From the NCBI GenBank assembly GCA_001314715.1, contig LJSV01000021.1, forward strand, positions 1 through 40,275: 40,275 nt of DNA, written 5' to 3'. A program made the translations under genes and the position numbers. The DNA is from Rhodobacteraceae bacterium HLUCCA12. GTDB taxonomy: Bacteria; Pseudomonadota; Alphaproteobacteria; Rhodobacterales; Rhodobacteraceae. Numbering within the stretch: the stretch's first letter is position 1; every line of letters begins with the position of its first letter. Below, piece after piece: positions 20,136-39,954 of the stretch. Under the pieces are notes generated by a model. The model saw only the letters and a program-made list of their open reading frames with translations. It did no database searches and was not told the origin of the DNA.

Positions 20136-21026
20136 TCAAGAATTCATGTCATTCGAAACAAGCGCCGAAAACGCCTGAGCGGCACGGCTTTGATGGCGCT
20201 CGCGGTGCCGGATGACCGAGAAGTCCCTCGCCGGCAAAGTAAATCCGGCCTCGGACACAACCGCCTGAGCGATATGGTGCCTGGCGGCGCGCTGCGACAG
20301 CGCCGTCGCACCGATACCCGCCTGAACCGCGGCGATGCAGGCTTCATTCGAGGGCAATTCCAAAAGCACGGAAAGATCTGCCGCACAAACGCCGAGCGCC
20401 GTCATCGCCTCGTCGAAGGCCGCGCGCGTCCCGGAACCGCGCTCGCGCATTACCCAGTTTGCCTGCGCCAGATCGGTTGCCGACAAGGCGCAGCGATCGG
20501 CCCAGGGATGCGCCCTTCCGACCAGAAGGCACATCCGGTCGTCAGCGACAGGCCTAACCTCTATGGCCGGGTTGGACACATATCCCTCGACCACGCCGAT
20601 ATCCGCCGCGCCGGAAATGACGGCTTCAAGCACCGAAGCGGTGTTGCCTTGCGCGAATTTCACAACGACCTTTGGATAGTTGGCCTGAAATCGCATCAGG
20701 TATCCGGGCAGAAAATAGCTGGCAACGGTTTGACTTGCCTGTATGCGCAGCGTCCCGGCAATATCGCGTTCAAGGTCGATCAGGAATGCCTCGGCTTCGG
20801 TCGCCCGTTGCACAACGCGCCGCGCATGCGGAACGAAGCGACGGCCCGATTCGGTCAGCACGATCCCCCGCCCGACCCGGTCAAACAGGGCAACCCCGTG
20901 CCGTTGCTCAAGGCCCGAAACCGCTGCACTGACGGCCGATTGCGTCATGTTCAGCGCCTCGGCGGCGCGGGTAACATGCTGCAACTCGGCCACTTTGAGA
21001 AAGATGCGCAATTGTTCGAGGGTCAC
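20136..21026 (-). CDS. LysR-family transcriptional regulator
   Basis: A 296-residue LysR protein: winged helix-turn-helix at the N-terminus (FLKVAELQHVTRAAEALNMT then QSAVSAAVSGLEQRHG), followed by the periplasmic-binding-like effector domain. It is divergent from a YeiH-type exporter, a pairing seen often in bacteria (YeiE/YeiH), so it most likely controls that neighbour. The 97-bp gap between them includes an AT-rich core around 21050-21066 suited to LysR binding. Confidence 0.93.
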   Translation of the reverse strand: MTLEQLRIFLKVAELQHVTRAAEALNMTQSAVSAAVSGLEQRHGVALFDRVGRGIVLTESGRRFVPHARRVVQRATEAEAFLIDLERDIAGTLRIQASQTVASYFLPGYLMRFQANYPKVVVKFAQGNTASVLEAVISGAADIGVVEGYVSNPAIEVRPVADDRMCLLVGRAHPWADRCALSATDLAQANWVMRERGSGTRAAFDEAMTALGVCAADLSVLLELPSNEACIAAVQAGIGATALSQRAARHHIAQAVVSEAGFTLPARDFSVIRHRERHQSRAAQAFSALVSNDMNS

Positions 21027-21123: not shown

Positions 21124-22134
21124 ATGCCGACCGCCCGAACCCCTACCTTCCAAAGCGCATCCGGCATGGCCCTTGGCCTGCTGCCCGCCTGCGCCATTGC
21201 CGCCGGTGCGATGGGTTTGCGCCACACTAGCGGGACAGCGATCCTAAGTCCGATGTTGGTCGCGGTGCTGGTCGGGGCGGGCGTGCGGGCGCTGATGGGG
21301 CCGTATTCGCTGCCGCCCACGGGGCTGGCCTTCGCCTCACGGCCGGTCCTGAGGGCCGGAATCGTCCTACTGGGGCTCCAGGTCACGTTGACCGAGATCG
21401 CTGAACTGGGCCTGGGGGCTTTCGGGGTTGCCGCGCTGACCCTGGCGGCAAGCTATCTTGCCATCATCTGGGCAGGGCGCTTGCTGGGCTTGCCGGTGCC
21501 CCTTACGCAACTCATCGCGGCGGGCACGGCAGTTTGCGGCGCCTCGGCCGTGGTCGCGGCGAACGCAGTTGCGCGTGGCAGCGAGTCCGACGTGGGTTAC
21601 GCCGTGGCCAGCGTCACCGTCTTCGGCACCATCTCCATGCTGGCCCTGCCCTTGATGGCCGGGCTGCTGGGCATGGATCCCGTGGCCTATGGCATCTGGG
21701 CCGGTGCCAGTATCCACGAGGTCGCGCAGGTGACTGCGGCATCGTTCCAGCTTGGCCCCGAGGCAGGACAGGTCGGCACGATCACCAAGTTGGCCAGGGT
21801 CATGCTTCTGGCACCGCTGGTTCTGACAATGGCGTTAATCGCGCGTGGCATCGCGACCTCTGGCGCAGCCCTGGGCGGGGTGCGCTTTCCCTGGTTCGTC
21901 CTAGGTTTCGTTCTCTTGGCAGCCGTTAATGGCGTCGTGACCATGCCGGAAAACGTCTATTCCGCAGCGGCGGAGGGCGCGACCTTCCTGATGGCGACAG
22001 GGCTTGCCGCGATGGGGCTCTCGACCGATTTGCGCGATCTGCGCAAACGCGGGCTGGTGCCGGTCATACTGGGGGCATTGGGCGGTTGCTTCGTCGTGTT
22101 CTTCGCCCTAGGGGCTGTGACGATCCTGCTTTGA
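21124..22134 (+). CDS. yeiH: YeiH-family putative sulfate/sulfite exporter
   Basis: A 336-residue membrane protein with about ten hydrophobic segments and conserved parts of the YeiH (Cons_hypoth698) family: GIVLLGLQVTLTEIAELGLG, GTAVCGASAVVAANAV, and the GASIHEVAQVTAAS motif. Members are annotated as sulfate or sulfoacetate exporters on the basis of gene context, with limited direct evidence. The ATG at 21124 has AGAAGGGAG upstream. It fits beside possible sulfonate-degrading genes, where sulfite must be removed. Confidence 0.88.
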   Translation: MPTARTPTFQSASGMALGLLPACAIAAGAMGLRHTSGTAILSPMLVAVLVGAGVRALMGPYSLPPTGLAFASRPVLRAGIVLLGLQVTLTEIAELGLGAFGVAALTLAASYLAIIWAGRLLGLPVPLTQLIAAGTAVCGASAVVAANAVARGSESDVGYAVASVTVFGTISMLALPLMAGLLGMDPVAYGIWAGASIHEVAQVTAASFQLGPEAGQVGTITKLARVMLLAPLVLTMALIARGIATSGAALGGVRFPWFVLGFVLLAAVNGVVTMPENVYSAAAEGATFLMATGLAAMGLSTDLRDLRKRGLVPVILGALGGCFVVFFALGAVTILL

Positions 22135-22225: not shown

Positions 22226-22280
22226 ACATTTGTACTCAGCACCGGCCGGGCCGCGAAAGACTTTGCAAGGATACCCATCG

Positions 22281-23873
22281 ATGACTGAAATCGTCACCCG
22301 CTCAGAGGATGAGGCACACTGTCCAGCCGATCACCACGCCGATGTCGTGATCGTGGGAGCCGGAAACGCGGCGCTTTGTGCGGCGCTGGCCGCGCGTGAC
22401 CGAGGGGCCAGCGTGTTGGTTTTGGAGGCTGCGCCCAAACCCGAGGCCGGTGGCAATTCGACCTATACCGCCGGGGCGATGCGGGTGGTCTATAACGGGG
22501 TCGACGACGTCAAGTCGCTGGTCCCCGATCTGGGCGAGGCCGAGATCAAGAACACCGATTTCGGCCAATATAGCGAGGACGACTTTTTCGACGACATGTT
22601 CCGCGTCACCGCGTTCCGCACCGACCCCGACCTGTGCGAAGCCCTGGTGCGCAAGAGCCTGCCAACCCTGCAATGGATGCGCCGGCAGGGTGTGCGGTTC
22701 CAGACTAGCCACGGCCGCCAGGCGCACAAGGTCAACGGGCGCTTTCGCTTCTGGGGCGGGCTGGTGTGCGAGGTCTGGGGCGGCGGGCCCGGCCTAGTGG
22801 ACATGCTGAGCGATGCCGCGCGCGGGAAGGGTATCGAGATCCTTTATCAGACGCTGGCCACCGATCTGATCGTCACTGACGGCAGGGTCCGCGGCGTCCG
22901 GGCTACCCGCGACGGGAAAGACCTAGTCATCGGCGCCCAGGCGGTCATTCTGGCCTGTGGCGGGTTCGAATCCAACGCCGAGATGCGCGCGCGCTACCTT
23001 GGTCAGAACTGGGATCTGGCCAAGGTCCGGGGTACGCGGTTCAACATGGGGCTGGGCCATGCCATGGCTCTTTCCGCCGGTGCCCGACCGGCGGGCCACT
23101 GGTCGGGGGCGCATGCCGTCGCCTGGGATCAGAACGCACCCGAATACGGTGATCTGGCGGTTGGCGACGCGTTCCAGAAACACAGCTATCCCTTCGGGAT
23201 CGTGGTCAACGCGCATGGCAAGCGTTTCATCGACGAGGGCGCCGATTTCCGCAACTATACCTATGCGAAATACGGTCGCGAGATTCTGGAACAACCGGGC
23301 CAGTTCGCATGGCAGGTCTTCGATGGCAAGGTCGCGCATATGCTGCGCGACGAATATCGCATCCGCGAGGTCACGCGTGTCGAGGCGGGATCGCTGCAAG
23401 AACTTGCGCAAAAGCTGGAAGGCGTCGATCCCAAGGGCTTTCTTCACACGGTCGAGACCTTCAACCAGGCCATCCTCCAGGATCGCCCCTTCGACCCCAC
23501 TGTCAAGGATGGCCGCGCCGCCATGGGGCTTGAGGTGCAAAAATCCAACTGGGCGAATCCGATCGACACACCCCCGTTCGAGGCCTATGCCGTGACCTGC
23601 GGCGTGACTTTCACCTTTGGCGGGCTCAAGATCACCCCCGACGCCGAGGTCGAGCACCTGACCGGCACACCGATTCCGGGGCTGTTCGCGGCGGGTGAAA
23701 TCGTCGGCGGTCTGTTCTACAACAATTATCCTGGTGGAACGGGGCTGACATCGGGCGCGGTCTTCGGAAAGATCGCCGGCGAATCGGCGGCGGCGCATGT
23801 GCAGACGGCACAATCTGCCGGCGAATCCGGCACCACCGCGCGCCCAGCCCGGCCCGCAACGATACGGGGATAA
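22281..23873 (+). CDS. tcuA: FAD-dependent tricarballylate-dehydrogenase-like protein
   Basis: A 530-residue flavoprotein of the TcuA type: VVIVGAGNAALCAALAARD at the start, EAGGNSTYTAGAMR, and a C-terminal LFAAGEIVGGLFYNNYPGGT. TcuA oxidises tricarballylate to cis-aconitate. The start at 22281 has GCAAGGA upstream; an upstream TTG frame covers the promoter region and is rejected. TcuB, the iron-sulfur/heme protein that reoxidises TcuA, is not in the window, so another acceptor or substrate is possible. Downstream genes (aldolase-like pair and CoA-transferase) show it acts in a CoA pathway. An MmgE/PrpD and a PrpF protein of tricarboxylate type are encoded in region G, which fits a polycarboxylate. 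Confidence 0.75.
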   Translation: MTEIVTRSEDEAHCPADHHADVVIVGAGNAALCAALAARDRGASVLVLEAAPKPEAGGNSTYTAGAMRVVYNGVDDVKSLVPDLGEAEIKNTDFGQYSEDDFFDDMFRVTAFRTDPDLCEALVRKSLPTLQWMRRQGVRFQTSHGRQAHKVNGRFRFWGGLVCEVWGGGPGLVDMLSDAARGKGIEILYQTLATDLIVTDGRVRGVRATRDGKDLVIGAQAVILACGGFESNAEMRARYLGQNWDLAKVRGTRFNMGLGHAMALSAGARPAGHWSGAHAVAWDQNAPEYGDLAVGDAFQKHSYPFGIVVNAHGKRFIDEGADFRNYTYAKYGREILEQPGQFAWQVFDGKVAHMLRDEYRIREVTRVEAGSLQELAQKLEGVDPKGFLHTVETFNQAILQDRPFDPTVKDGRAAMGLEVQKSNWANPIDTPPFEAYAVTCGVTFTFGGLKITPDAEVEHLTGTPIPGLFAAGEIVGGLFYNNYPGGTGLTSGAVFGKIAGESAAAHVQTAQSAGESGTTARPARPATIRG

Positions 23874-25079: not shown

Positions 25080-25080
25080 C

Positions 25081-25539
25081 ATGTCCGAGCACCATCCCGA
25101 ACCCGACGAAGACTCGCGGCCCTGGTGGGACGCGCTGGCGCGGCACCTCCTGACCTATCAGACATGCACCGATTGCAACGGCGTCGTGTTCTATCCGCGC
25201 AACCGCTGCTGCCATTGCCTGTCCGATGCCCTGCAATGGCACCAGTCGCTCGGGCTGGGCACGGTCTATTCGCGGACACTGGTCCATCGCGCACCCGATC
25301 CACGGATGCGCGATCAGCTGCCGTATCCGGTGGCCCTGATCGATCTGGACGAGGGCTTTCGCATGATGAGCCGTCTGGTGGGCCCCGATGCCAACCAGAC
25401 TCCGATCGGCGCGCGCGTGCAGGTCGTCTTTGGCCTCGGCCCGGACGGTCGCCCCCTGCCGTTCTTTGAGCCCGTCGATCCGGTCGCCGCGCCGGACAAA
25501 CGCGGCGACGCAAACGGGGGGGGACATGAAACAACGTAA
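25081..25539 (+). CDS. Second Zn-ribbon/OB-fold (DUF35) partner protein
   Basis: A 152-residue DUF35 protein starting at the ATG one base after the thiolase-fold gene. Zinc ligands are Cys29, Cys32, Cys43 and Cys46 (CTDC...CCHC), followed by an OB-fold (VYSRTLVHRAPDP onward). An extra cysteine (44) lies inside the ribbon. The C-terminal 20 residues are polar and probably disordered. It should form a complex with the protein encoded just before it. Its end overlaps the CoA-transferase A start by 14 bases. Confidence 0.88.
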   Translation: MSEHHPEPDEDSRPWWDALARHLLTYQTCTDCNGVVFYPRNRCCHCLSDALQWHQSLGLGTVYSRTLVHRAPDPRMRDQLPYPVALIDLDEGFRMMSRLVGPDANQTPIGARVQVVFGLGPDGRPLPFFEPVDPVAAPDKRGDANGGGHETT

Positions 25540-26194: not shown

Positions 26195-26209
26195 AAGGAG
26201 CGCTTTGAC

Positions 26210-26926: not shown

Positions 26927-27697
26927 ATGAACGGATTGACGGATATTATGGCACCCGTTCTGACCGAATTCGATACCATCCAGTTGGCGTTTCTGGGTGC
27001 GGCCACGATCTTCGGCGCGGTGTTTCGCGCCTATGCCGGGTTCGGCGCGGGCCTGTTTCTCGTGCCGATCTATTCGCTGTTTCTGTCGCCGTCGCAGGCG
27101 ATCGTTCTTGTTACGCTGCTCAATCTGCCGACTACGTTGCAGATCCTTCCACGGGTCTGGCACGATATTCCCTGGCGCAGGGTTGCCGCACTCAATGTCA
27201 TGGCGGCGGCGACCATCCCGATCGGGGTCTGGCTGCTGGTGCGCGTCGACGGCGATGCGCTGACACGGGTTATCGGCGTTCTGGTTATCGCGCTTGCGGT
27301 GCTATTGCTGAGCGGCTGGCGCTATCGGGGGCCGCAGGCGTTGCCGCAGGATCTTGTCATCGGCATGGCGGCCGGCCTCATCTCGGGCGCGACCGGCATG
27401 GGCGGGCCGCCGATCGTGCTCTACTTTCTGTCCGGCACGGCGGCGACGGTGATGGTGCGCGCGGCCTTCATTGTCAGTTTCTTCTTCATCACGGTCGTGA
27501 CCTTTGCCAGCCTCGTCACGGCGGGACTGGTGGCGCTGCCGGACGTCCTGCGCTTTGCGGTCCTGTTGCCGGCCTATGCGATCGGAACCTGGCTTGGCAG
27601 TGCCCTGTTTCAACGCACCAAGGACCATGACCGCCTATTCCGCACGGTCGCGCTGTGCGCGCTTATGGTCGTGGGGGTCGTGGCGGTTGCGCACTGA
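26927..27697 (+). CDS. TauE/SafE-family membrane permease
   Basis: A 256-residue membrane protein with about eight hydrophobic segments and the family features FRAYAGFGAGLFLVPIYSL and GLISGATGMGGPPIVLYFL. TauE/SafE proteins are thought to export sulfite, sulfoacetate or related anions, and TauE is encoded beside taurine-degrading genes. Its location at the end of region E, 15 bp after the CoA-transferase, suggests it removes a waste anion made by this pathway. It converges with the region F operon, leaving only 7 bp. Confidence 0.88.
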   Translation: MNGLTDIMAPVLTEFDTIQLAFLGAATIFGAVFRAYAGFGAGLFLVPIYSLFLSPSQAIVLVTLLNLPTTLQILPRVWHDIPWRRVAALNVMAAATIPIGVWLLVRVDGDALTRVIGVLVIALAVLLLSGWRYRGPQALPQDLVIGMAAGLISGATGMGGPPIVLYFLSGTAATVMVRAAFIVSFFFITVVTFASLVTAGLVALPDVLRFAVLLPAYAIGTWLGSALFQRTKDHDRLFRTVALCALMVVGVVAVAH

Positions 27698-28850: not shown

Positions 28851-30319
28851 GATCCAGCGGCCGGGTCGCGGCTGACAGCCACCTGCGTCCCCGGCCCGCT
28901 GACGTGCACCCGCCGCAAGGATGGCAACTTGCGAACCTCGTTCAGCAATTTCGAAAGGGGTGTGTCCAGCAGCGTGTAATCGGTCACCATCGCGCCCGCC
29001 GACAACATGTCATCGACCTGGCTGCCCTTGAACATGAAACGCATGAGCCGTTCCTCGTCCGACATGTCGGGATACCTGCGCCGCAGATCGGGCACGGCCG
29101 GTTCCAGCGGCTGGGGTTCACCCGGGATCGACTGCGATCCACGCTCGACGATCCGGTCGAGAATATCGGGATCGACTGGCGCGACAAGTTTGCCGAAATG
29201 CCCCAGCGCATAGCGTTTCACCTCATCTGGGACGACCAAGTAACGCTCGCCCTGCATGATGTTATAGACCGCCTGCGTTGCCACGAACTGCGCAAAGGGC
29301 GTGACCATGATCGGCCATCCCAGCTCTTCGCGGATGCGGCCGCATTCGCCGAGAACGTCATCAAAGCGGTCGCTGATCCCGGCCTGTTCGAGCTGAAACT
29401 GGAGGTTCGTCAGCATGCCGCCCGGCAATTGGTGGCGAAAATGGTAATCGTCGTATTCACAGGGAATGCCGACCGGCTTGCCCTCCTGTTCGGCCACCGC
29501 CGCGAAATGGGCCGAGACCGCGTCGATGCAGGCGTCATCCAGCCCTACATCAAAGCCGCGCCCGCGCAGGTTGCGCGCGATGGTCTGGGTCGCGGGTTGC
29601 GCCGGGCCGTTCGCAAGCGGTGCAACCGATGTGTGCACGCCGTCGGCGCCAGCCTTGATCCCCTCAAGATAGACCAGCGGCGCCAGCCCGGTCATGCAAT
29701 GGCTGTGGATTTCCAGCGGAACCTTGCCCAGCACCTTCTTCATGGCCGGCACCAGTGTCCGAATGCGATCGACCGTCAGCAGACCGCCCGAATCCTTCAG
29801 CATCAGGTGGTCGATCTCGACGCGCTGCATCATGTCGCGCACCTTGCCGACAAAATAGTCGTCGGTATGCGCCGGGCTTTCGGTAAAGACCAGCGCGCCC
29901 CCGACCTTTGCACCAGCGCGTTGGCCCACGCGCATGGTTTCGGTGATGTTGTCCAGATCGGCCAGCGCGTCAAAGGCGCTCAATTTTCCGATCCCGGCCC
30001 GCACCAGCAGCTCGACCCACAGATGCACGACATCATCGGGAAGGATGCGAAACGTGACCAGGCTTTTCGATCGCAAACCGGCCTTCAGCGGGGTTTTGGC
30101 CGCCCGCTCGCGCACCAGTCGAATCCGATCCCACGGGTTTTCGCGCAGATAGCGGACGCAGACATCAAACTGGATCGACCCCATGAGGTCGAGCGCGTCG
30201 TAACCCGCATTGTCCAGATGTTCCACGGCGGGCAGCATCATCGCGGTGGTCATCCGCGTGGCCCAAAGACATTGCTGGGCATCGCGCAGCGTGGTGTCGG
30301 TAAACTTGACGCGGGTCAT
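28847..30319 (-). CDS. Biotin-dependent carboxyltransferase of the PycB/OadA family with altered acceptor site
   Basis: A 490-residue TIM-barrel carboxyltransferase. Metal-site residues of pyruvate carboxylase are kept: Asp13 (TLRDA), Lys165 (LMLKD), His195 and His197 (IHSH). Residues for pyruvate are not: FRxFD is LSAFD (Ser114 for Arg), and the TSQP threonine is Pro229 (NGPAQP). KDMAG is KDSGG and HTHD is HSHC. LPGGMLTNLQ is present. I start at 30319 (MTRVKF) because GGAGGG lies just upstream and the ATGA overlaps the biotin carboxylase stop. It probably carboxylates or decarboxylates something other than pyruvate/oxaloacetate. The C-terminal 100 residues contain no biotin domain; the carrier is a separate gene. 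Confidence 0.88.
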   Translation of the reverse strand: MTRVKFTDTTLRDAQQCLWATRMTTAMMLPAVEHLDNAGYDALDLMGSIQFDVCVRYLRENPWDRIRLVRERAAKTPLKAGLRSKSLVTFRILPDDVVHLWVELLVRAGIGKLSAFDALADLDNITETMRVGQRAGAKVGGALVFTESPAHTDDYFVGKVRDMMQRVEIDHLMLKDSGGLLTVDRIRTLVPAMKKVLGKVPLEIHSHCMTGLAPLVYLEGIKAGADGVHTSVAPLANGPAQPATQTIARNLRGRGFDVGLDDACIDAVSAHFAAVAEQEGKPVGIPCEYDDYHFRHQLPGGMLTNLQFQLEQAGISDRFDDVLGECGRIREELGWPIMVTPFAQFVATQAVYNIMQGERYLVVPDEVKRYALGHFGKLVAPVDPDILDRIVERGSQSIPGEPQPLEPAVPDLRRRYPDMSDEERLMRFMFKGSQVDDMLSAGAMVTDYTLLDTPLSKLLNEVRKLPSLRRVHVSGPGTQVAVSRDPAAGS

Positions 30320-31677
30320 TTTGCCCTCCAAGCAGGCAGGAATTCCATTTCGATCCATTTCGTGTGTATCGCGCCGCTGCGATAATCATTGTGTCGCATG
30401 ATGGCGCGGTGCATCGGTGCCGTCGTGGTGACACCTTCGGCGCGCAGCGCGGCAAGCGAAGTCTCCATGCGCGTGATTGCCTTCTCGCGATCATCGGCGT
30501 GCACGATGATCTTGGCAATCAGCGAGTCATAGTGAGGCGCGATCAGGTAGCCCGAAAAGCAATGGCTATCGACGCGCACACCGGCCCCTTTCGGGGCGTC
30601 CCATCGCATCAACCGGCCCGGCGAAGGACGAAATCCGTGCTCGGGGTCCTCGGCGTTGATACGACACTCGATCGCGTGGCCCTGCAGCGCGATGTCCTGC
30701 TGACGCAATCCAAGCGCGTGTCCCGCCGCAACGGACAGTTGCAACGCGACCAGATCGATGCCGCTGACCATTTCGGTGACCGGATGCTCGACTTGGATCC
30801 GGGTGTTCATTTCGAGGAAATAGAACTGCGCCTGGTTCTCGTCATAGATGAATTCGACGGTCCCGGCGCCGACATAGCCGACATGACGCGCCAGATTCAC
30901 GGCCGCGGTGCAGATCTCCGCACGCTCGCGCGGTTGCAGGATCGGCGAGGGCGCTTCTTCGATCAGCTTCTGATAGCGGCGCTGAACCGAACATTCGCGC
31001 TCGCCCATATGGACGACATTGCCCTGCCCATCAGCAAAGACCTGCACCTCGATATGCCGCGCCCGTTCAACTAAGCGTTCGACAAAAACGGCGGCGTCGC
31101 CAAAGGCGGCCTCGGCCTCGGCGGCGGCGGCCTGCACAGCGCCGGCCAGATCCGCCATGGCGTGAACCTGACGCATTCCCCGGCCGCCGCCCCCCGCGCT
31201 GGCCTTGACCAGAACCGGAAAGCCGTGTTCGCGGGCAAATGCCTCGGCCTTTGCCGCGCCCAAGATACGCCCCGTTCCCGGCGGAACCGGCAATCCCGCC
31301 TGTTGCGCGCACTCGCGCGCGGCGACCTTGCTGCCCATCAACTCGATCACGTCGGCTGGCGGGCCGATGTACGCAAGGCCGTTGTCCGCGACCATCCGCG
31401 CGAACGCGGCATTTTCGGAAAGAAAGCCATAGCCCGGATGCACTGCGTCGCAGCCCTTGCCCAGTGCCGCGGCCACCAAGGCGGGCATGTTCAGATAGCT
31501 CTTCTGCGAAGGCGCCGGACCGACACAGACCACGTCATCGGCAATCAACGCGCCCAACGATTCACGGTCGGCGGCGGATACCGCCAGGACCGACTCGATC
31601 CCGGCCTTGCGACACGCACGAATGACGCGCACCGCGATTTCCCCGCGGTTTGCAATGAGGACGCGTTTCATCGCCAA
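30316..31677 (-). CDS. Biotin carboxylase subunit (AccC-like)
   Basis: A 453-residue ATP-grasp enzyme that carboxylates biotin on the carrier protein. It opens with KRVLIANRGEIAVRVIRAC, has the glycine-rich loop KASAGGGGRGMR, the HIEVQVFADG strand, FLEMNTRIQVEHPVTE with the catalytic Glu and Arg, and GHAIECRINAEDP. Length is normal. It sits between the biotin-carrier gene and the carboxyltransferase, so the three make one enzyme. It need not be the housekeeping acetyl-CoA carboxylase subunit, whose genes normally lie elsewhere. Confidence 0.93.
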   Translation of the reverse strand: MAMKRVLIANRGEIAVRVIRACRKAGIESVLAVSAADRESLGALIADDVVCVGPAPSQKSYLNMPALVAAALGKGCDAVHPGYGFLSENAAFARMVADNGLAYIGPPADVIELMGSKVAARECAQQAGLPVPPGTGRILGAAKAEAFAREHGFPVLVKASAGGGGRGMRQVHAMADLAGAVQAAAAEAEAAFGDAAVFVERLVERARHIEVQVFADGQGNVVHMGERECSVQRRYQKLIEEAPSPILQPRERAEICTAAVNLARHVGYVGAGTVEFIYDENQAQFYFLEMNTRIQVEHPVTEMVSGIDLVALQLSVAAGHALGLRQQDIALQGHAIECRINAEDPEHGFRPSPGRLMRWDAPKGAGVRVDSHCFSGYLIAPHYDSLIAKIIVHADDREKAITRMETSLAALRAEGVTTTAPMHRAIMRHNDYRSGAIHTKWIEMEFLPAWRAK

Positions 31678-31683
31678 CTCCGG

Positions 31684-32235
31684 TCAGTTTGCACGGATTC
31701 GAATGAGGGGCTGGTCGAATTCAACCATTGCGCCGTTCTCGACTTCGACGCCGGTGACCACGCCGTCGGTCTCGGCTTCGATCGTGTTGAACAGTTTCAT
31801 GCATTCGATGAGGCACAGGATCTGACCCTTGGTGACGGTATCGCCGACGTTGACATAAGGCGGCTCCTCGGGACTCGGGGCGCGATAGAACGTGCCTAGC
31901 ATGGGCGAGCGCATGACGGTATCGCCATCATCCGGCAGGCTTGGCGCAGCGGCCGGGGCCGGTGCGGGTGCCTCGCCGGTCGGGGCAGGGACCGGCGCCG
32001 CGGCGGCGGGTTCGGGCACCGCGGCGACCGGAGCCGGAGCCTGAGCCGGGGCCATCAGGCCAGACAGGTCGCCGCCATCCTTGGCAACACTTAGGGAAAT
32101 TCCCGCCGTTTCGATACGCAGCGCGGTGAAGTCCGATTGCTCGAACAGCCGCAACAGCACCATCACTTCGCTGGTTTCTTTCGTCATCATTGATTTTTCC
32201 GACATATCGTTTGCGGGCCCGAACAGCCCTGACAC
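31684..32235 (-). CDS. Biotin carboxyl carrier protein
   Basis: Up to 183 residues: a short N-terminal region like AccB, a Pro/Ala-rich linker (about 60-100), and a C-terminal biotinyl domain with the biotin lysine in ECMKLF (Lys147; most homologues have EAMK). It carries the carboxyl group between the carboxylase and carboxyltransferase encoded downstream. The true start may be one of the later Met codons at 32205 or 32190; none has a strong ribosome site. It follows the ABC permease gene by 22 bp on the same strand. Confidence 0.9.
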   Translation of the reverse strand: MSGLFGPANDMSEKSMMTKETSEVMVLLRLFEQSDFTALRIETAGISLSVAKDGGDLSGLMAPAQAPAPVAAVPEPAAAAPVPAPTGEAPAPAPAAAPSLPDDGDTVMRSPMLGTFYRAPSPEEPPYVNVGDTVTKGQILCLIECMKLFNTIEAETDGVVTGVEVENGAMVEFDQPLIRIRAN

Positions 32236-32257: not shown

Positions 32258-33166
32258 TCAGCGCACCATGCCCCATTTGCGAACCGTGTGGTCTTCCAGC
32301 ACCCGGAAAATGACGTTCTCGACGATCAGCCCGATCAGGATCACCGTTCCAAGGCCCGCGAAGACGTTGGCGATCAGCAGTTCGTTCTTGCTGACAAAGA
32401 TAAACCACCCCAGACCGCCGGAAGAAGAGCTGACACCGAACACCAACTCGGCCGCGATCAGCGTACGCCACGCGAAGGCCCAAGCGATCTTGAGCCCGGT
32501 CAGGATCGACGGCAGCGCCGCCGGGATCAGGATGCGCATGACATAGAACAATCCGCGCAGGCCATAGTTGCGCCCGCACATCCGCATCGTCTCGCTGACC
32601 GAGGTGAAGCCGGACAGGGTGTTCAGCGCCAGAGGCCAGAGCACCGCATGGACAAGAACGAAGATCAGGCTGGTTTCCCCCAGACCGAACCACAGCAAGG
32701 CCAGCGGCAAAAGCGCGATCGCGGGCAGCGGGTTGAACATTGATGTGAGCGTCGCAAGGAAATCGTTGCCGATGCGCGTCGATACCGCCAGTGATGTCAG
32801 AATTGCCGCGACCGCGACCCCGATCAAATAGCCCTTCAGCAAGACCCCAATAGACGACCACGCCATAGCAAGCAGACGGCCTTCGGTGAACTCGCGCCAG
32901 AACGCTTCGGCAGTCGCGCCGAAGGTCGGCAACATCAGCGAATTGTTTACCCAAAGCGCGTAAAGCTGCCAGACACCGGCCAAGATTACCAGGATTGTCA
33001 GGCGGCGGACTAGCGTGATTTCGCTTACTCGCTCCCACAGGGTCAGCGGGCGCGCAACGTCAACGCGATCATCGAATGGCTTGGGCTCGCGCTCGAACTC
33101 GGGGCGCCGCGGCGGTTCGCGCCGTCCCGGCGTGCCTTGCGCGTCAAAGGTTTCAGCGGTCGTCAT
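32258..33166 (-). CDS. ABC transporter permease of the SsuC/TauC type
   Basis: A 302-residue permease with about six membrane segments and the family's EAA-type loop (ETMRMCGRNYGLRGLFYV then MRILIPAALPSILTGLKIA) that contacts the ATPase. The start at 33166 has GGAGGAGAT upstream and overlaps the ATPase gene by 14 bases. The first 75 residues are charged and cytoplasmic, longer than usual. Related permeases import alkanesulfonates, taurine, nitrate, or pyrimidine precursors. Confidence 0.92.
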   Translation of the reverse strand: MTTAETFDAQGTPGRREPPRRPEFEREPKPFDDRVDVARPLTLWERVSEITLVRRLTILVILAGVWQLYALWVNNSLMLPTFGATAEAFWREFTEGRLLAMAWSSIGVLLKGYLIGVAVAAILTSLAVSTRIGNDFLATLTSMFNPLPAIALLPLALLWFGLGETSLIFVLVHAVLWPLALNTLSGFTSVSETMRMCGRNYGLRGLFYVMRILIPAALPSILTGLKIAWAFAWRTLIAAELVFGVSSSSGGLGWFIFVSKNELLIANVFAGLGTVILIGLIVENVIFRVLEDHTVRKWGMVR

Positions 33167-34001
33167 CTTCGATCTCCTCCACCCGATCGGCAAAGAGCAT
33201 TTCGTGGATGTGATTGTGCAGCGCCTGGAACTGCTCGCCGCCAATGCTGCCAATACCCAAATCGCCCGAATTCAGTTCAGCCTTGACTTGGCCGGGATGT
33301 GGCGAAAGCACTAGAATCCGGTTGCCGATGATCAGGGCTTCCTCGATCGAATGGGTGACGAACAGTACGGTAAAGCGAACATCGTCCCACAGCTGCAGCA
33401 ATTCCTCCTGCATCCGCCGGCGCGTCAGCGCATCGAGGGCGGCAAAGGGCTCGTCCATTAGCAGGATCGCGGGTTCCATCGCCATGGCACGGGCGATGGC
33501 GACGCGCTGCTTCATCCCGCCTGACAGCATGTGCGGATAGGCGTCGGCGAACTTGGTCAGGCCAACCTTGTTGACATAGTCCATCGCCTGGTCGGTCGCC
33601 TCGGCCCGGCTCATGCCACCGCCGGTGATCAGCGGAAACATCACATTCTGCTTGACCGTCTTCCACGGCAACAGCTGGTCGAATTCCTGAAAGACCATCA
33701 TGCGTTCGGGGCCGGGCCCGCGTACCGGCTTTCCGTTCAGCTCGATCTGGCCATTGGCCGGCTTCATGAATCCGGCCACACCCTTGAGCAAGGTCGATTT
33801 GCCGCAACCCGACGGCCCCAGCAATATGAAGCGGTCGGCGGCATAGGTGTCGAAGCTGACGCAATACGTTGCCGTGACCAGATGATCCTTGGTCTTGTAT
33901 TGCAGCGTGACATCCTTGACCTGCAACAGTGGCCGCTCGGGCGGGATCTGCGATCCCGCCTTGGCAGTCGTCTTATCTTGCGACTTGATTTCCATGTTCA
34001 T
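33153..34001 (-). CDS. ABC transporter ATP-binding protein of the SsuB/TauB type
   Basis: A 282-residue ATPase with Walker A GPSGCGKST, Q-loop MVFQEFDQLLPW, signature LSGGMKQRVAIARAMA, Walker B ILLMDEPFAALD and the switch VTHSIEEA. I start at 34001 (MNMEIKSQ); the frame is open another 288 bases but that part has no family sequence and overlaps the binding-protein gene. It lies 13 bp after that gene and powers the SsuC-like permease. Confidence 0.93.
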   Translation of the reverse strand: MNMEIKSQDKTTAKAGSQIPPERPLLQVKDVTLQYKTKDHLVTATYCVSFDTYAADRFILLGPSGCGKSTLLKGVAGFMKPANGQIELNGKPVRGPGPERMMVFQEFDQLLPWKTVKQNVMFPLITGGGMSRAEATDQAMDYVNKVGLTKFADAYPHMLSGGMKQRVAIARAMAMEPAILLMDEPFAALDALTRRRMQEELLQLWDDVRFTVLFVTHSIEEALIIGNRILVLSPHPGQVKAELNSGDLGIGSIGGEQFQALHNHIHEMLFADRVEEIEDDDR

Positions 34002-34014
34002 CGCCGGCAACCGA

Positions 34015-35067
34015 TCAGCTTCCGTCACGATCATGAATCTCGGGGAAATACAGCGCGCGCCAGTCCTCCGGCCGATTGTCGATGCGGCCGATGTCGGCCA
34101 TGAAGTCGGCAAACACCATCGTCCGCGTCGGCGTGGATGAAAAGACTGTGTCTTCGCGCCCGAGCATCTCCAGAACGAAGTCGAGTTCAAGCGTCGATCC
34201 CGATTCCTCCAGATAGATCTCGGCGCTTTGCTCGGGATTCTCGGCGATGAAGTCCATGGACTCGTCCAATGCCGCAAGAAATGCTGCATAGACGGTGGGA
34301 TTCTCCTCGCGGAAGACGTCTGTCGCCGCTATGATCCCGTTTGTCACCGGCCCACCCATCACGTCGAACGAGCTCAGCACCATCCGGATGTTGTCTTCGG
34401 CAAGCGCCTGATACTGGAACGGCGGGTTGGTGAAATGGGCCGTGATCTCGGACGACCCCGACAAAAGCGCGACCATTCCGTCAGGATGCGACATCGAAAC
34501 CGTGATATCATCAAGACGATCATAGTTTTCTGGGCCCCAGACCTGCGCCGCCGCCATCTGGAGTTCGGTCGCCTGAAGCGACACCCCCACAGCCGGAAGC
34601 GCGATCCGATCCTCGGATGTGAAATCCTCGATCGTTTCGACATCCGGGTTGCGGGTCACAAGGTATTGCGGCAGTGCGCTGAAGGCCGCAACACCGCGCA
34701 CATCCAGGTTCTCGCGGGTGCGATCCCAGATCGTGATCAACGGCGGGGTGCCGGTCGCTGCAAAATGCAGGTTGCCGGAAATCAGCGCGTCGTTCATGGC
34801 AGCGCCGCTGGAGTATGTGTTCCAGTCCACCTCAAGCGCATCCATGCCCATCTCTGCCGCATGCTTTTCGATCATTTCCTGATTACGCATGATCAACAAC
34901 GGCAAATAGGTGATGCCATACTGATAGGCGACCGTCGTCGTTTCGACCTCCGCCTGTGCAGCGCCGGGCGCGAGCGCGATTGCCGTCGACATCGTTGCCG
35001 CGGCACCCGCCATCAAGACACAGCGCCGTGTGGCCTTTGATTTGGCCGGCCGGATATTCCGTTCCAT
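34015..35067 (-). CDS. ABC transporter substrate-binding protein (SsuA/TauA/NMT1-like)
   Basis: A 350-residue periplasmic protein. The N-terminus (RPAKSKATRRCVLMAGAAAT) has a twin arginine ahead of a hydrophobic stretch and an AQA cleavage site near residue 39, so export may be by Tat. The body has TVAYQYGITYLPLLIMRN, GNLHFAATGTPPLIT and SSEITAHFTNPPFQYQ, the pattern of binding proteins for sulfonates, nitrate or thiamine precursors. The start at 35067 has GGGAGGAAG upstream. It is the first gene of region F, so the imported compound is probably the substrate for the carboxylase, dehydrogenase or the linked operons. Confidence 0.9.
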   Translation of the reverse strand: MERNIRPAKSKATRRCVLMAGAAATMSTAIALAPGAAQAEVETTTVAYQYGITYLPLLIMRNQEMIEKHAAEMGMDALEVDWNTYSSGAAMNDALISGNLHFAATGTPPLITIWDRTRENLDVRGVAAFSALPQYLVTRNPDVETIEDFTSEDRIALPAVGVSLQATELQMAAAQVWGPENYDRLDDITVSMSHPDGMVALLSGSSEITAHFTNPPFQYQALAEDNIRMVLSSFDVMGGPVTNGIIAATDVFREENPTVYAAFLAALDESMDFIAENPEQSAEIYLEESGSTLELDFVLEMLGREDTVFSSTPTRTMVFADFMADIGRIDNRPEDWRALYFPEIHDRDGS

Positions 35068-35241
35068 GGCTCTTCCTCCCTGATCGAAATTGCGCGCCGC
35101 CATCCCGGCGACGTACATCATTCTGGCGTCCCTTGCATGATGTGGCGCACCGCCCTCCATCGGCGCGCGCCGCGCCGGACCCCCCTGTAGGCCGATCCGA
35201 GCTTCCCAGAAATGGCGAAGCTGGCGGACTTGCCTAGATCA

Positions 35242-35627: not shown

Positions 35628-37043
35628 ATGAACATCCAGACCCACACGAAAGCAGATCTTGACGGTCTGACGATGCGCTTTGCCGCCATCGGCGCAGAGC
35701 TTGATCATGACGATCTGCCGGAAGACGTTAGCCATAAGGCCAAGCTGATTATCCGCGATGGCATCGCCAACCAGATCGCGGCCTCGGCAACCAGCGAGGC
35801 CGCAAAGGCGATGGTTGACCTCGTGCGTGAATGGGGCGGTGCGCCGCAAAGCACGGTCTCGGGCTCGGGCCTGAAGCTGCCGGCCCCCATCGCCGCCATG
35901 TGCAACGGCATGATGGGCCATGGTGTTGAACTGGACGATGCGCATGGCTCAGGCCTGATCAAGGCCGGCTCGGTCCTTATTCCGGCGGTCTTTGCTGCGG
36001 CCGAACTCAACCCCAAGGCGACTGGCAAGGATGCCGTTGCCGCGATCGTCGCGGCGTACGAGCTTGCGATCCGGGTCGCCAAGGCGATCAACCCGGGCCA
36101 TCGTCACCGTGGCTATCATACGACCAGCACGGTCGCCTGCATCGGCGCCGCGGTCGCGGCTGGCCGCATGCTGGGCTGCAACACCGAGCAGATCGCCAGC
36201 GCCATCGGTCTGGCCGCGATGCAGTCCAGCGGCATCCAAGCTTATCTCGATGATCCCTGCATGGCGAAACCCTTCGGCCCCGGCAAGGCGGCATTCAATG
36301 GCGTCTTGGCAGCGATCATGGCCTCACGCGGGTTCACCGGCCCACGCAAGGTTCTGGAATCGCGCGAGGGCTTCTTGAATGCGTTCACTGACGAGGTGCG
36401 CCTGTCGGACCTGCTGGAAGGTCTGGGCCATGAATTCGCGATTATGGAAGTCGGGTTCAAGCCCCATGCCGCATGCCGCTATGCGCACGGACCCATCGAC
36501 ATCGCCCAGCATTTCCGCGCCCAGGGAACTACGCTCGAGAACACAGCGAGGGTGCGCGTCGAGATGAGCAAGCTCGCCATTCGGCAGGCGTCGAAATACC
36601 CCTGCCCCAGCATGAATGCGGCGATGGGCAGCACCCAATTCGGTATAGCGCTGGCCCTGGCGAAAGGCAGCAATGGCCTGCGCGATTACTGGGACGGATA
36701 CGGCGATCCAGTGATCCACGACGGCGCCGGAAAGGTAACGCTGGAAGAGAACCCCGAATTCGGCATCGGCGGGCGCCAATCGGTCGTGCATATCGAAACC
36801 ACCGACGGTCGAAAGCTGTCACACCGGCAAGAGGAACCCAAGGGCGAACCTACCCACCCGATGAGCAATGACGAGCTTGAAAAGAAATTCGCCAGCACAG
36901 CGGGACTGGTCATCGATCAGCACCGCACCGTCGAGATCAGCCGCAGGATCATGTCGCTTGAAACCGAACCAAGCGCCGCCGCATTTCCGCAGTTGACCGT
37001 CGCTGTATCAGACGGCGGCACACCGCAGTTGCGCGCGGGCTAA
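35628..37043 (+). CDS. MmgE/PrpD-family protein
   Basis: A 471-residue protein starting at 35628 after GGAGGGAAGC. Family features include SGLKLPAPIAAMCNGMMGHG followed by VELDDAH, HRGYHTTSTVACIGAAVAAG, KPFGPGKAAFNG, and HAACRYAHGPID. Members are 2-methylcitrate dehydratase, cis-aconitate decarboxylase and iminodisuccinate epimerase, all acting on di- or tricarboxylates by proton abstraction next to a carboxylate. It leads the region G operon, 9 bp before the PrpF gene. There is no methylcitrate synthase or lyase here, so ordinary propionate metabolism is not indicated. Confidence 0.92.
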   Translation: MNIQTHTKADLDGLTMRFAAIGAELDHDDLPEDVSHKAKLIIRDGIANQIAASATSEAAKAMVDLVREWGGAPQSTVSGSGLKLPAPIAAMCNGMMGHGVELDDAHGSGLIKAGSVLIPAVFAAAELNPKATGKDAVAAIVAAYELAIRVAKAINPGHRHRGYHTTSTVACIGAAVAAGRMLGCNTEQIASAIGLAAMQSSGIQAYLDDPCMAKPFGPGKAAFNGVLAAIMASRGFTGPRKVLESREGFLNAFTDEVRLSDLLEGLGHEFAIMEVGFKPHAACRYAHGPIDIAQHFRAQGTTLENTARVRVEMSKLAIRQASKYPCPSMNAAMGSTQFGIALALAKGSNGLRDYWDGYGDPVIHDGAGKVTLEENPEFGIGGRQSVVHIETTDGRKLSHRQEEPKGEPTHPMSNDELEKKFASTAGLVIDQHRTVEISRRIMSLETEPSAAAFPQLTVAVSDGGTPQLRAG

Positions 37044-37052
37044 GGGCCTCCG

Positions 37053-38261
37053 ATGGCCTTGGCAGCCAAAACAGCCGACGCAGGCCACGCCCATCCCGAA
37101 CAGATCGGCGTGGACTGCCTGTTCATGCGCGGCGGTTCCAGCCGGGGCGGGTTCTTTCTGGAAAGCGACCTGCCCGCCGACCCGCGCGCGCGTGCCGCGC
37201 TGCTGCTGGCGCTCTATGGCTCGCCCGATCTGCGCCAGATCGATGGGATCGGCGGCGGCGACCCGCTAACCAGCAAGGCCGCGGTCATCGGGCCGGCGTC
37301 GCACCCCGATGCCGATCTGGACTACACGTTCTACCAGGTCGGCATCGACCGCGCGCAGGTCTCGACAGGCGGGAACTGCGGCAACATGCTGTCCGCCGTG
37401 GGTGCATTCGGCGTTCTCAAGGGACTCTTGCGGCCCACCGAACCCGAAACCGCGGTGCGCGTGCATGTCACGAACATCGGTCAGGTCGTGACGCTGCGCC
37501 AGCCCGTGCGCGATGGTTTTCCGCGAGTCGATGGCGACACATCCATTCCCGCCGTCCCTGGTACCGGCGCCGGCATCACGATCGATTTCGGCAATTGCGC
37601 GGGGTCGTTGTCCGGGCGTTTGCTGCCCACCGGCGCGCCGTCCAACATCGTCGAGGTCGCCGGTCGGCCGGTGTCAGTTTCCTTTGTCGATGCCGCAACG
37701 CCATTCGTCTTCGTAGCCGCCTCCGACCTGGGCGCGACAGGCACCGAACTGCCCGTGCAGATCCTTACCGATACCGCGCTCATGGAGGCGCTCGAATCGA
37801 TCCGCAGCTGGGCCGCCGTGGTCCTGGGCCGTGTCACCCGGGCCCAAGATGCCCGAAAGGTCACGCCGAATGTGCCCCGCGTCATCATGGTCGCACCACC
37901 GCAGCAATATACCACCACCAACGGCGCCCAGGCCGGGCCAAGCGACATGGACCTTTGCGTGCGCCAGCTAGCGATGCAGAAACCGCACAACGCGCTGGCC
38001 GTTACCGGCGCGGTGTGCACGGCCGTCGCGGCCCGCGTGCCCGGCTCCATCGTTGCCGCGCTCTCGGCCTCGGACGGGCCATATACGCGACTTGGCCATC
38101 CCGGTGGCGTCTTGCAGGTATCCGCGCAGGTCGAGGACGCAGGCCCCGAACTCCGGGTGACAAGCGCGATGATCGAACGCACCGCTCGGCTGATCATGGC
38201 CGGCAGGCTTTACGCACCACGCTCGCGCATAGCTGCACTGGCCCCACAGGTCGAGATCTGA
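37053..38261 (+). CDS. PrpF-family isomerase
   Basis: A 402-residue protein of the PrpF family, which moves the double bond of aconitate-like acids (methylaconitate isomerase; 4-oxalomesaconate tautomerase). It has CLFMRGGSSRGGFF (usual form GGTSKG), DGIGGGDPLTSKAAVIG with Lys75, and STGGNCGNMLSAVGAF with Cys109. The Lys/Cys pair has the same 34-residue spacing as Lys73/Cys107 of Shewanella PrpF. With the MmgE/PrpD protein it suggests a tri- or dicarboxylic unsaturated intermediate. It may prepare the acceptor or product for the ComA-like enzyme encoded next. Confidence 0.9.
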   Translation: MALAAKTADAGHAHPEQIGVDCLFMRGGSSRGGFFLESDLPADPRARAALLLALYGSPDLRQIDGIGGGDPLTSKAAVIGPASHPDADLDYTFYQVGIDRAQVSTGGNCGNMLSAVGAFGVLKGLLRPTEPETAVRVHVTNIGQVVTLRQPVRDGFPRVDGDTSIPAVPGTGAGITIDFGNCAGSLSGRLLPTGAPSNIVEVAGRPVSVSFVDAATPFVFVAASDLGATGTELPVQILTDTALMEALESIRSWAAVVLGRVTRAQDARKVTPNVPRVIMVAPPQQYTTTNGAQAGPSDMDLCVRQLAMQKPHNALAVTGAVCTAVAARVPGSIVAALSASDGPYTRLGHPGGVLQVSAQVEDAGPELRVTSAMIERTARLIMAGRLYAPRSRIAALAPQVEI

Positions 38262-38284
38262 TCGCAGCAGCAGAAAGGGAGCTC

Positions 38285-39064
38285 ATGCCTTCCCTATCTT
38301 TCACCGGCCCGCCGCGCAGCCCGAAGCCGCGTGCGCGTGGGCTGACTTCGATAATCGATTTCGGACCCGACGGATTCGGCTGGACCGGGCCGCGCGGGGT
38401 GCGCGACCTGCTCGACGTGGCCGCCGAGCATATCGATTATGCAAAGATCTATGCGATGAACGCGCTTCTCATCCCCGAGGAGGTCGTAACCCGCATCGTG
38501 CGCCTGTATCGCGACGCGGGTGTCACTCCCTATGCCGGTGGCATCCTGTTCGAACATGCCGCCCATACCGGTCAGATCGACGGCTATATCAACCACTTGC
38601 ACAGGATCGGGATCAAAACGGCGGAAGTGTCCGAGAACTACCTGCAATTTCCCGACGCCACACGCGAGCGCCACATCGAGACGTTGCAACGCGCCGGCAT
38701 TTCCGTGATCTATGAATTTGGCCTCAAGAACCCATCCGAACCGTTCGATCTTGAACGACTCGAAGCCATTGTTCGATCGAATATCGACCAAGGCGTCCAG
38801 CACGTCATTGTCGAGCAATCCGAAATCGACATGGCGCGCAGCCAATCACCCGGATTGCTTGGGGAACTGGCCTCGCGCCCGTGGTTTCGATATATTCTCA
38901 TCGAGGCCGATCCATACGGGTTTCCGACGCAGCACGCCCAGCTTCTCGGCGAGTTCGGGCCTGATGCGAACCTTGCCAACATCGCCGCCGGTCAGGCGCT
39001 GCGACTGGAGGGAATGCGAAGGGGAGTTGGGCGCTCGGTCAATTACGCCATGTTCAAGGAATAG
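38285..39064 (+). CDS. Phosphosulfolactate-synthase (ComA)-like TIM-barrel protein
   Basis: A 259-residue protein resembling ComA, which adds sulfite to phosphoenolpyruvate in coenzyme M synthesis. Family-like features in order: KPRARGLTSIIDFGPDG, HIDYAKIYAMNALLIPEE, VTPYAGGILFEHA, IKTAEVSENYLQF, VIYEFGLKN, HVIVEQSEID, and EFGPDANLANI near the C-terminus. Several conserved-looking positions differ from typical ComA (KK-D as LKN, EARESG as EQSEID), so substrate may differ. No comB or comC is nearby. The start at 38285 has AAGGGAG upstream. I infer reversible sulfite addition to, or elimination from, an unsaturated acid; direct proof is absent. Plant HSA32 shows that the fold can have other roles. 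Confidence 0.8.
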   Translation: MPSLSFTGPPRSPKPRARGLTSIIDFGPDGFGWTGPRGVRDLLDVAAEHIDYAKIYAMNALLIPEEVVTRIVRLYRDAGVTPYAGGILFEHAAHTGQIDGYINHLHRIGIKTAEVSENYLQFPDATRERHIETLQRAGISVIYEFGLKNPSEPFDLERLEAIVRSNIDQGVQHVIVEQSEIDMARSQSPGLLGELASRPWFRYILIEADPYGFPTQHAQLLGEFGPDANLANIAAGQALRLEGMRRGVGRSVNYAMFKE

Positions 39065-39069
39065 ATTGA

Positions 39070-39954
39070 ATGGATATCTCTGTCGCCAAGGCCAATTTGC
39101 AAGGCCTGATACGGAATCTTCAAAGTCTCGGTTTCAGCGATTACGAGGCCAAGGCGTATATCTCGCTGCTAAAGGTGCAGCCCGCCACCGCCTACGAGGT
39201 CAGCAAGGAAGCGGGCATTCCAAAGGCGAACTGCTACACTGTTCTCGAAAGCCTGAGCAAACGCGACAGCGTCCAGCCGATTTCAGAGAGTCCGTTGCGA
39301 TACGTTGCGGTGCCGCCCGAAGTTCTGTTCGAGCGCATTGCCAAGAGCACCGAGGAGCGCTGCAACCAACTGGTGAATGATCTCAAGGCGGTCGGCACGG
39401 GCCCCGACTATGATTATGTCTGGTCTCTGTCGGGGCGCGACCCGATCAACCAAGCCATCGACCAACTGATCCGAGATGCCAAACACCAACTTTGGGTCAA
39501 GGCGACGGCATCGGCACTTATGGTTCACCGCGAGGCCCTGCGCGAATGCGCCGCACGCGGCGTGATCGTGCGGATCATCCTGTTTGGGGATGACCCCGAG
39601 CCGTTTCAGTTCGGCGACGAGAACCGCTGCTGGCTGCACGAGGGCAACGGGATCGCGGTCGGCATCTCGCATCTGTTGTTCACAATTGCCCGCGACTACG
39701 AAGAGGCCATCGTGGCCGAATTCGGCGAGGCGCCCCATGCCTCGGTCACGCGCAACCGGGCCATGGTCAACGTCGTCGACAGCCTGATCCGCCACGAGAT
39801 CTACTTTGCCGAGATATTCGAGGCGTTCGGCGACGAGATCATGGAATGCTTCGGCCCCGCGCTCTATCATCTGCGCAGCAAATACCTGCCGCGACAACAG
39901 GCCGAGGACCTCGGAAGCCGCCTTGATGACATCCGTATGGCGTCGCGAGGCTGA
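39070..39954 (+). CDS. TrmB-family transcriptional regulator
   Basis: A 294-residue regulator. The N-terminal winged helix (residues 13-80) reads LIRNLQSLGFSDYEAKAYIS then LLKVQPATAYEVSKEAGIPK, the hallmark of TrmB proteins. The C-terminal part (about 115-250) is the PLD-like ligand-sensing region with SGRDPINQAIDQLIRDAK and IILFGDDPE. TrmB proteins are mostly known from archaea as sugar sensors. It is the last gene of region G, 5 bp after the ComA-like gene, and is the best candidate to bind the TAGTA/TACTA sites of regions E, F and G. No ligand can be named. Confidence 0.85.
   Translation: MDISVAKANLQGLIRNLQSLGFSDYEAKAYISLLKVQPATAYEVSKEAGIPKANCYTVLESLSKRDSVQPISESPLRYVAVPPEVLFERIAKSTEERCNQLVNDLKAVGTGPDYDYVWSLSGRDPINQAIDQLIRDAKHQLWVKATASALMVHREALRECAARGVIVRIILFGDDPEPFQFGDENRCWLHEGNGIAVGISHLLFTIARDYEEAIVAEFGEAPHASVTRNRAMVNVVDSLIRHEIYFAEIFEAFGDEIMECFGPALYHLRSKYLPRQQAEDLGSRLDDIRMASRG

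Follow-up and report, generated by a model that had tools for sequence, protein, structure and literature searches.

The protein encoded at positions 38285 to 39064 on the + strand of the DNA analysed here (the window, one complete contig of 40,275 bases) has the ComA fold, as predicted by its structural model. Sequence comparison places it in a subfamily of its own, which is well supported and distinct from the phosphosulfolactate (PSL) synthases. The recurrence of its gene, in changed gene orders, with genes for TcuA-, PrpF- and PrpD-type enzymes points to a shared function of this cassette. As the best explanation, which we put forward only tentatively, we suggest that it is a ComA-fold lyase and not a PSL synthase, and that it helps to break down a sulfonated di- or tricarboxylate by releasing sulfite from it.

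The reading frame runs from an ATG at 38285 to a stop ending at 39064 and encodes an intact protein of 259 residues, preceded by a ribosome-binding site (AAAGGGAG, 38274–38281). Pfam PF02679 (ComA) covers residues 10–248 with 183 bits against a cut-off of 25.2; together with the ribosome-binding site and the relatives at 31 other loci this rules out a chance open frame, and a phage origin was ruled out by the lack of any match in a phage collection. The gene is the single ComA-family copy in the source genome (3.7 Mb, 52 contigs). It is the third in an operon with the order PrpD, PrpF, ComA-like, TrmB, all on the + strand and separated by gaps of only 9, 23 and 5 bases, which bears out the co-transcribed set named in the original prediction. 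The first gene (35628..37043) encodes an MmgE/PrpD-family protein (PF03972, MmgE_PrpD_N, 202 bits), its start having been picked by the ribosome-binding site in a frame that is itself open from 35532. The PrpF-family isomerase (37053..38261) matches PF04303 at 365 bits, and the TrmB-type protein behind the ComA-like gene (39070..39954; PF01978, 79.5 bits), which has an ortholog at 12 of 31 other loci, is probably the regulator of the cassette.

Neither PrpD nor PrpF reaches the scores expected of its best known namesakes. The PrpD-family protein falls below the NCBIfam equivalogs for 2-methylcitrate dehydratase (45 against 950, 32 against 575 and 26 against 458 bits), and its nearest solved relatives, 2hp3 and 7e9d, are IDS-epimerase and IRG1. 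The PrpF-family protein is likewise below the equivalog cut-offs for prpF and oxalomesaconate tautomerase (251 against 440.6 and 321 against 440 bits), with 3-methylitaconate isomerase as its nearest solved relative (3g7k, 299 bits). These failed equivalogs and nearest relatives suggest that the TcuA, PrpF and PrpD proteins probably act on C4–C6 unsaturated polycarboxylates, and not as the classical methylcitrate set.

For the ComA-like protein itself, the NCBIfam equivalog for archaeal ComA (TIGR03849) gives 122 bits, below its cut-off of 280, so that its original description as a divergent member of the family was correct. Solved proteins matched by sequence (E <= 0.001) comprise PSL synthases and a designed derivative only, four distinct sequences in all. 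An AlphaFold2 model built from 34 aligned sequences has a mean pLDDT of 87.3, and the top three Foldseek matches in the PDB, with E-values from 7e-17 to 6e-16, are the Methanocaldococcus jannaschii PSL synthase (1qwg), a designed particle derived from PSL synthase (9cm1) and a Bacillus subtilis homologue (1u83). Compared to 1qwg the model has TM-scores of 0.78 and 0.81 at 27% identity, and the next fold after the PSL-synthase matches appears at an E-value of 9e-7, nine orders of magnitude weaker. Sequence and predicted structure thus both confirm ComA as the best match.

We compared residues, numbered as in M. jannaschii ComA, in a table of 32 rows from the subfamily and 35 others; left out of it are L052, which covers the region of L024, then L053, L061 and L019 (partial), as well as the duplicates L001, L003, L004 and L006. 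Nine core residues (D20, K43, E79, E103, S105, E133, K137, E168 and E205) are kept in all 32 subfamily rows, and K148 of the window protein aligns with K137, the residue proposed as the acid/base of ComA. Other positions are replaced just as uniformly. R170 gives way to serine in 28 rows and cysteine in four; in place of GWGT at 45–48 (within GWGTS in the PSL-synthase branch) there is [YF]A[MLFI]N, in place of D106-G107 there is EN, and in place of P207 aspartate (31 rows) or asparagine (one). An insert resembling GPDxxGWTG follows strand 1. The PEP/sulfite pocket of the original prediction is therefore preserved in its nine core residues, but not at R170 and GWGTS. From the kept residues and the uniform replacements we infer that the subfamily may retain the chemistry of the fold, addition or elimination beside a carboxylate, on another and probably non-phosphorylated substrate.

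To collect relatives, four close ones were aligned and the alignment was used to scan a collection of genomes, which yielded 38 loci. In thirty-one of these (L025–L055), which by their record titles all belong to Pseudomonadota, the protein shares 49–62% identity with that of the window, and the counts out of 31 given here refer to them, the other seven (six distant, and the partial L061) being excluded. Plasmid records add further relatives on seven Bradyrhizobium plasmids (62%) and on Paracoccus versutus pTAV3 (52%). A tree was built from 65 sequences of the ComA family, leaving out the entries missing from the residue table as well as L023, which nearly duplicates L025, and L054, which is truncated. 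Here the subfamily (30 rows) forms one side of a branch with support of 100/99. The PSL-synthase group was chosen by possession of R170, found in 11 of the 35 sequences outside the subfamily, and that these 11 share a single branch (support 100/94) is a result of the tree. This branch includes the genes of M. jannaschii, B. subtilis, Xanthobacter Py2 and Legionella lytica, of which the Xanthobacter gene adjoins 2-hydroxypropyl-CoM lyase and the Legionella gene adjoins 2-phosphosulfolactate phosphatase. Long-branch warnings concern L005, L007, L060, L062, L072, L075 and L077, all outside the subfamily.

Several more distant relatives were seen in passing. A third ComA-like group of 13 rows (L008–L010, L012, L014–L016, L056–L059, L071 and L072) lies on one branch (99/97); its members are without R170 and have asparagine at 107 and E-L at 205–206, and two of them, on plasmids, are also annotated as phosphosulfolactate synthase. 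Far ComA-like genes are found adjacent to an MmgE/PrpD gene on Salinibacter ruber pSR116 (L074, 3514–5786), near an MmgE/PrpD gene in Halorussus halophilus (L076, 93–1436 and 4965–5786), and near genes for a TauE/SafE sulfite exporter, a CoA-transferase and a TRAP transporter on a Natrinema halophilum plasmid (L075, 3004–5789). The partial match at L061 (residues 132–220), on the same contig as the intact gene of L029 and accompanied by a partial TrmB match, looks like a remnant duplication.

Close orthologs of the window genes, identified with tblastn, recur around the 31 related genes: TcuA, the commonest partner, at 18 loci, PrpF at 15, PrpD at 13 and TrmB at 12, counts that were made without a random-locus control. 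Four further loci have a TcuA of 36–39% identity with TcuB nearby. We did not count as orthologs a 30% FAD gene at L042 or the 27–32% PrpD relatives at L030 and L050, and did count the TcuA of L025, though it lies 9.4 kb off at the edge of the locus. The partner counts rest on tblastn, the gene calls retaining a few antisense frames (F11 opposite the window ComA; F41 opposite TrmB in L027 and L036). Overall, 23 of the 31 loci have one or more of TcuA, PrpD and PrpF, and eight have none (L037, L038, L039, L042, L044, L046, L049 and L050), some of these ending at a contig edge.

The cassette occurs in at least four gene arrangements. PrpD-PrpF-ComA-TrmB-TcuA-SsuABC is found at L027, L036 and L048, and up to the contig end at L053; PrpF-ComA-PrpD-TcuA at L041, L045 and L047; ComA-TcuA-SsuABC, with PrpD-PrpF about 6 kb further, in Paracoccus and Cereibacter; and PrpF divergent from ComA-TrmB at L029 and L033. 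Nine of the 31 loci encode an SsuA-type binding protein close to the ComA-like gene, and several loci have TctC-type receptors in its place. One SsuA-type protein, that of L027, was compared to solved structures, among which E. coli SsuA and TauA come closest, followed by a nitrate-transport protein. A trio of ComA-like, TcuA-like and class II aldolase genes occurs without PrpD or PrpF at L028 (9977–13203), L032 and L055, flanked by genes of ilvE and heptosyltransferase type and by a relative of phosphomannomutase.

The original prediction also expected the neighbours to be conserved in related genomes. This holds around related genes in other species, as just described, but fails for the closest relatives of the source genome: 17 congeners have no ComA-family gene, no TcuA at an E-value of 1e-100 and no PrpD at 1e-60, with several of the genomes incomplete. 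Since the orthologs of all three are absent there, the source genome probably acquired the cassette.

Though not part of the operon, an ortholog of the most frequent partner is present in the window, 14.4 kb from the ComA-like gene, and had been missed in the original prediction. This TcuA-like FAD dehydrogenase (22230..23873, + strand) scores 603 bits with NF006130 (cut-off 369) and 280 with the older TIGR02485 (cut-off 372.6), and is of the same type, at 59–71% identity to close orthologs, as the protein adjoining ComA-like genes elsewhere. Two genes of sulfite-exporter families had been missed too. Directly upstream of TcuA is the sole copy in the genome of a YeiH-family membrane protein (21124..22134, + strand; PF03601 232.5 bits, above its cut-off; TIGR00698 168 bits, below its cut-off of 232.6), and divergent from it a YeiE-related LysR-type regulator (20136..21026, - strand) for which the NCBIfam YeiE model is second best at 204 bits, below its cut-off of 480. 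The other is a TauE/SafE-family permease (26927..27697, + strand; PF01925 93.5 bits, cut-off 32.6), whose membership of the cassette is uncertain.

A transporter lies on the - strand before the operon, consisting of an NMT1/SsuA-type substrate-binding protein (34015..35160; NMT1_2 26.5 bits, SsuA_fam 68 bits against a cut-off of 163.5), an ABC transporter ATPase (33153..34289 as called, the true start probably being later; PF00005 109 bits) and a permease (32258..33253; PF00528 46 bits). Unlike the SsuA of other ComA-like loci, this binding protein has no tblastn match at any of them, and its place in the cassette, judged from these matches, is uncertain. The genes behind TcuA (23931–26911) code for a thiolase-family protein and for both subunits, A and B, of 3-oxoacid CoA-transferase; the thiolase is matched at L037 only and the CoA-transferase at no other ComA-like locus. 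The stretch that separates the TcuA run from the ABC transporter (27705–32235) encodes an iron alcohol dehydrogenase, a PycB-like carboxyltransferase, a biotin carboxylase and BCCP, of which the biotin carboxylase alone is matched at another ComA-like locus (L049). At 3165–10937 genes for an acyl-CoA ligase and a thiolase, dehydratase-like and acyl-CoA dehydrogenase-like genes and genes of the N-ethylmaleimide-reductase family form what is apparently another catabolic cluster.

The links of ComA-like genes to sulfur genes are suggestive but not statistically firm. YeiE and YeiH are reported to confer sulfite resistance in Salmonella (PMC12880088). In our data YeiH is weakened as proof of sulfite chemistry, as it is found at none of the other ComA-like loci and occurs in congeners without the cassette: it is over the cut-off in eight of 17, and the LysR gene lies beside it without the cassette in five of the seven congener stretches examined. 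TauE was dropped as a genome-level marker, being present in all 26 genomes and all 14 controls, and was therefore counted near the gene only, with a profile that included already known matches. Three of 32 subfamily loci (L034, L046 and L050, among L024–L055) have it, compared to 0.94 expected in the 519 kb searched (from 193 matches in 106.8 Mb; P 0.07), and P falls to 0.02 only with the window added, where one TauE was already known; the excess is thus weak. The TPP enzyme before TauE in L034 was considered as a sulfoacetaldehyde acetyltransferase and rejected (NCBIfam 186 against 620 and 173 against 676 bits).

A further link is found in betaproteobacteria, where a sulfatase with the CVPTR motif lies directly before the ComA-like gene at L044 (8637–10010), L046 (8635–10002) and L049 (3570–5072). 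Bordetella genomosp. 12 and Candidimonas humi (L057, 6389–7717; L059, 7600–8928) also have a sulfatase, together with a TctC receptor, close to a ComA-like gene of another subfamily. The sulfatases are 64–72% identical to that of L044 (the Bordetella/Candidimonas one 64%), the motif having been checked in L044, L046 and L049. Sulfatases release sulfate, not sulfite.

If the preferred explanation of sulfite release holds, the substrate would be imported by an SsuABC-type or TctC-type carrier and desaturated by the TcuA-like flavoprotein, the PrpF-like protein would shift or isomerise the double bond, and the PrpD-like protein would add water. The ComA-like enzyme would then eliminate sulfite from the resulting beta-sulfo acid, the reverse of the ComA addition, and the oxo or unsaturated acid so formed would enter the TCA cycle. 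A candidate route is from sulfosuccinate via sulfofumarate and 2-hydroxy-3-sulfosuccinate to oxaloacetate and sulfite, and a sulfite adduct of itaconate is an alternative candidate substrate. Here we infer the catabolic direction, the order of steps, sulfite as the leaving group and the identity of the substrate. The explanation draws on the ComA sequence and fold, the core residues, the recurrent cassette and the YeiH, TauE/SafE, SsuA-type and sulfatase links. Counted against it are the position of the sulfite markers outside the conserved core, the weak TauE excess, YeiH in congeners without the cassette, the eight loci without TcuA, PrpD or PrpF, the TctC-type receptors, which point to plain tricarboxylates, and the match of the SsuA-type protein to a nitrate-transport protein as well. 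The original suggestion of sulfite addition to, or removal from, an unsaturated di- or tricarboxylate thus stays plausible through YeiH and TauE/SafE in the window and the SsuA-type proteins at nine of 31 loci, while the TauE excess lends it little.

A serious rival, though on the whole we think it unlikely, keeps the same partners and dispenses with sulfur. The ComA-like protein would be a C–C lyase (or hydratase) replacing PrpB or dimethylmalate lyase, such that TcuA desaturates a tricarboxylate, PrpF isomerises it, PrpD hydrates it and the ComA-like enzyme finally splits the resulting hydroxy acid via a carboxylate-stabilised intermediate, as it would in sulfite release. Plain di- or tricarboxylates are indeed what TcuA, PrpD, PrpF and TctC point to, and the nearest relative of PrpF fits as well: in nicotinate fermentation 3-methylitaconate isomerase feeds a hydratase and a lyase, and both PrpB and dimethylmalate lyase perform C–C cleavage as a last step. 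TcuB accompanies TcuA at four of 31 loci, an aspartase lies beside the gene at L046 and an isopropylmalate/isocitrate-dehydrogenase relative at L035, and the loss of R170 fits an altered substrate. However, a sulfur-free pathway would require a novel type of reaction from a family in which all characterised proteins, to our knowledge, use sulfite, and it leaves the YeiH, TauE/SafE and SsuA-type proteins and sulfatases nearby unexplained.

The sulfite-adding direction, in which an unsaturated acid would be sulfonated, either for the sake of the sulfonate itself or as a trap for toxic sulfite, strikes us as distinctly unlikely. It is the known direction of ComA, the TcuA, PrpF and PrpD proteins could provide an unsaturated acceptor, and YeiH, a sulfite-resistance factor of Salmonella (PMC12880088), adjoins TcuA in the window; but the uptake-type carriers and dedicated regulator look catabolic, and we found no recurring downstream biosynthetic gene at the loci. 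Even less probable is that the ComA-like gene travels with polycarboxylate genes while its product is accessory or unrelated to them, being for instance another isomerase or a lactonase. The eight of 31 loci with none of the three core enzymes, and the varied neighbours, such as an LPS heptosyltransferase (with TcuA kept there) or a sulfatase, speak for this reading. Against it, the gene lies immediately next to PrpF, TcuA and PrpD time and again, in differing orders and in distant species. We regard as very improbable a true PSL synthase for sulfolactate or coenzyme M lying in this operon by chance, given the lack of ComB in the genome, the score below the NCBIfam ComA cut-off, the replacement of R170 in 32 of 32 rows, the separate clade and the recurrent non-coenzyme-M partners, despite the kept core residues and a ComC-family dehydrogenase directly behind the gene at one subfamily locus (L050).

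The absence of comB and comC from the window, noted originally, extends in the case of ComB to the whole genome (PF04029, 0 matches; 7 of 14 control genomes were positive). Ldh_2, the ComC family and one of many functions, has two copies in the genome, both on other contigs. The Ldh_2-family dehydrogenase of L050 (9953–11836) has as its best NCBIfam match L-sulfolactate dehydrogenase, at 218 bits and below the cut-off of 500.

Extended beyond the window, the preferred sulfite-release reading would amount to a new desulfonation route, carried as a mobile cassette in alpha- and betaproteobacteria, in which a ComA-fold sulfo-lyase and TcuA-, PrpF- and PrpD-type enzymes mineralise sulfonated di- or tricarboxylates such as sulfosuccinate or the sulfite adducts of itaconate or aconitate; we consider this possible, if doubtful. 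A true sulfo-lyase would give soil and freshwater bacteria a way to strip sulfite from sulfonated polycarboxylic acids, and a true C–C lyase would place the ComA fold in sulfur-free chemistry. In practical terms, the database label phosphosulfolactate synthase on the plasmid relatives suggests coenzyme M or sulfolactate synthesis, and the hosts may make neither compound. The subfamily has sharp limits, a signature that can be tested (YA[MLFI]N, SENY, and serine or cysteine for R170) and recurrent partner enzymes. ComA relatives outside coenzyme M synthesis are already known from B. subtilis and, as HSA32, from plants. Among the open-licence papers listed by literature searches, judged by titles and the openings of abstracts, none describes the linkage of ComA-like and polycarboxylate genes.

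Several known systems resemble parts of this picture. The PSL synthases (M. jannaschii 1qwg, B. subtilis 1u83 and the coenzyme M cluster of Xanthobacter Py2) share the fold, the Pfam family and the nine core residues, and the window protein differs from them in its 27% identity to 1qwg, the replaced R170 and GWGTS, the GPDxFGWTG insert after strand 1, the genome without ComB and the different operon. SuyAB belongs, as far as we know, to a protein family unrelated to ComA. The reaction offers a likeness nonetheless, as SuyAB converts sulfolactate to pyruvate and sulfite, which TauE exports (PMC12421959), and the sulfite loss proposed here would similarly lead from a 2-hydroxy-3-sulfo acid to a 2-oxo acid. 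In the degradation of mercaptosuccinate by Variovorax and Advenella a sulfur-bearing C4 dicarboxylate yields succinate and sulfite, by a dioxygenase and spontaneous sulfite loss, and the passages searched mention no ComA-like enzyme (PMC5373536). The methylcitrate cycle and the nicotinate-fermentation branch share PrpD- and PrpF-family partners that hydrate or isomerise branched unsaturated acids. The window PrpD and PrpF are below the equivalog cut-offs, however, and nearest to IDS-epimerase/IRG1 and 3-methylitaconate isomerase, and PrpB, PrpC and AcnD are absent among the annotated recurrent neighbours of ComA-like genes. Tricarballylate utilisation by TcuABC shares the TcuA-like flavoprotein, over one NCBIfam cut-off, and TcuB at four of 31 loci; to these the cassette adds PrpD-, PrpF- and ComA-like enzymes, none of which, as far as we know, tricarballylate use needs.
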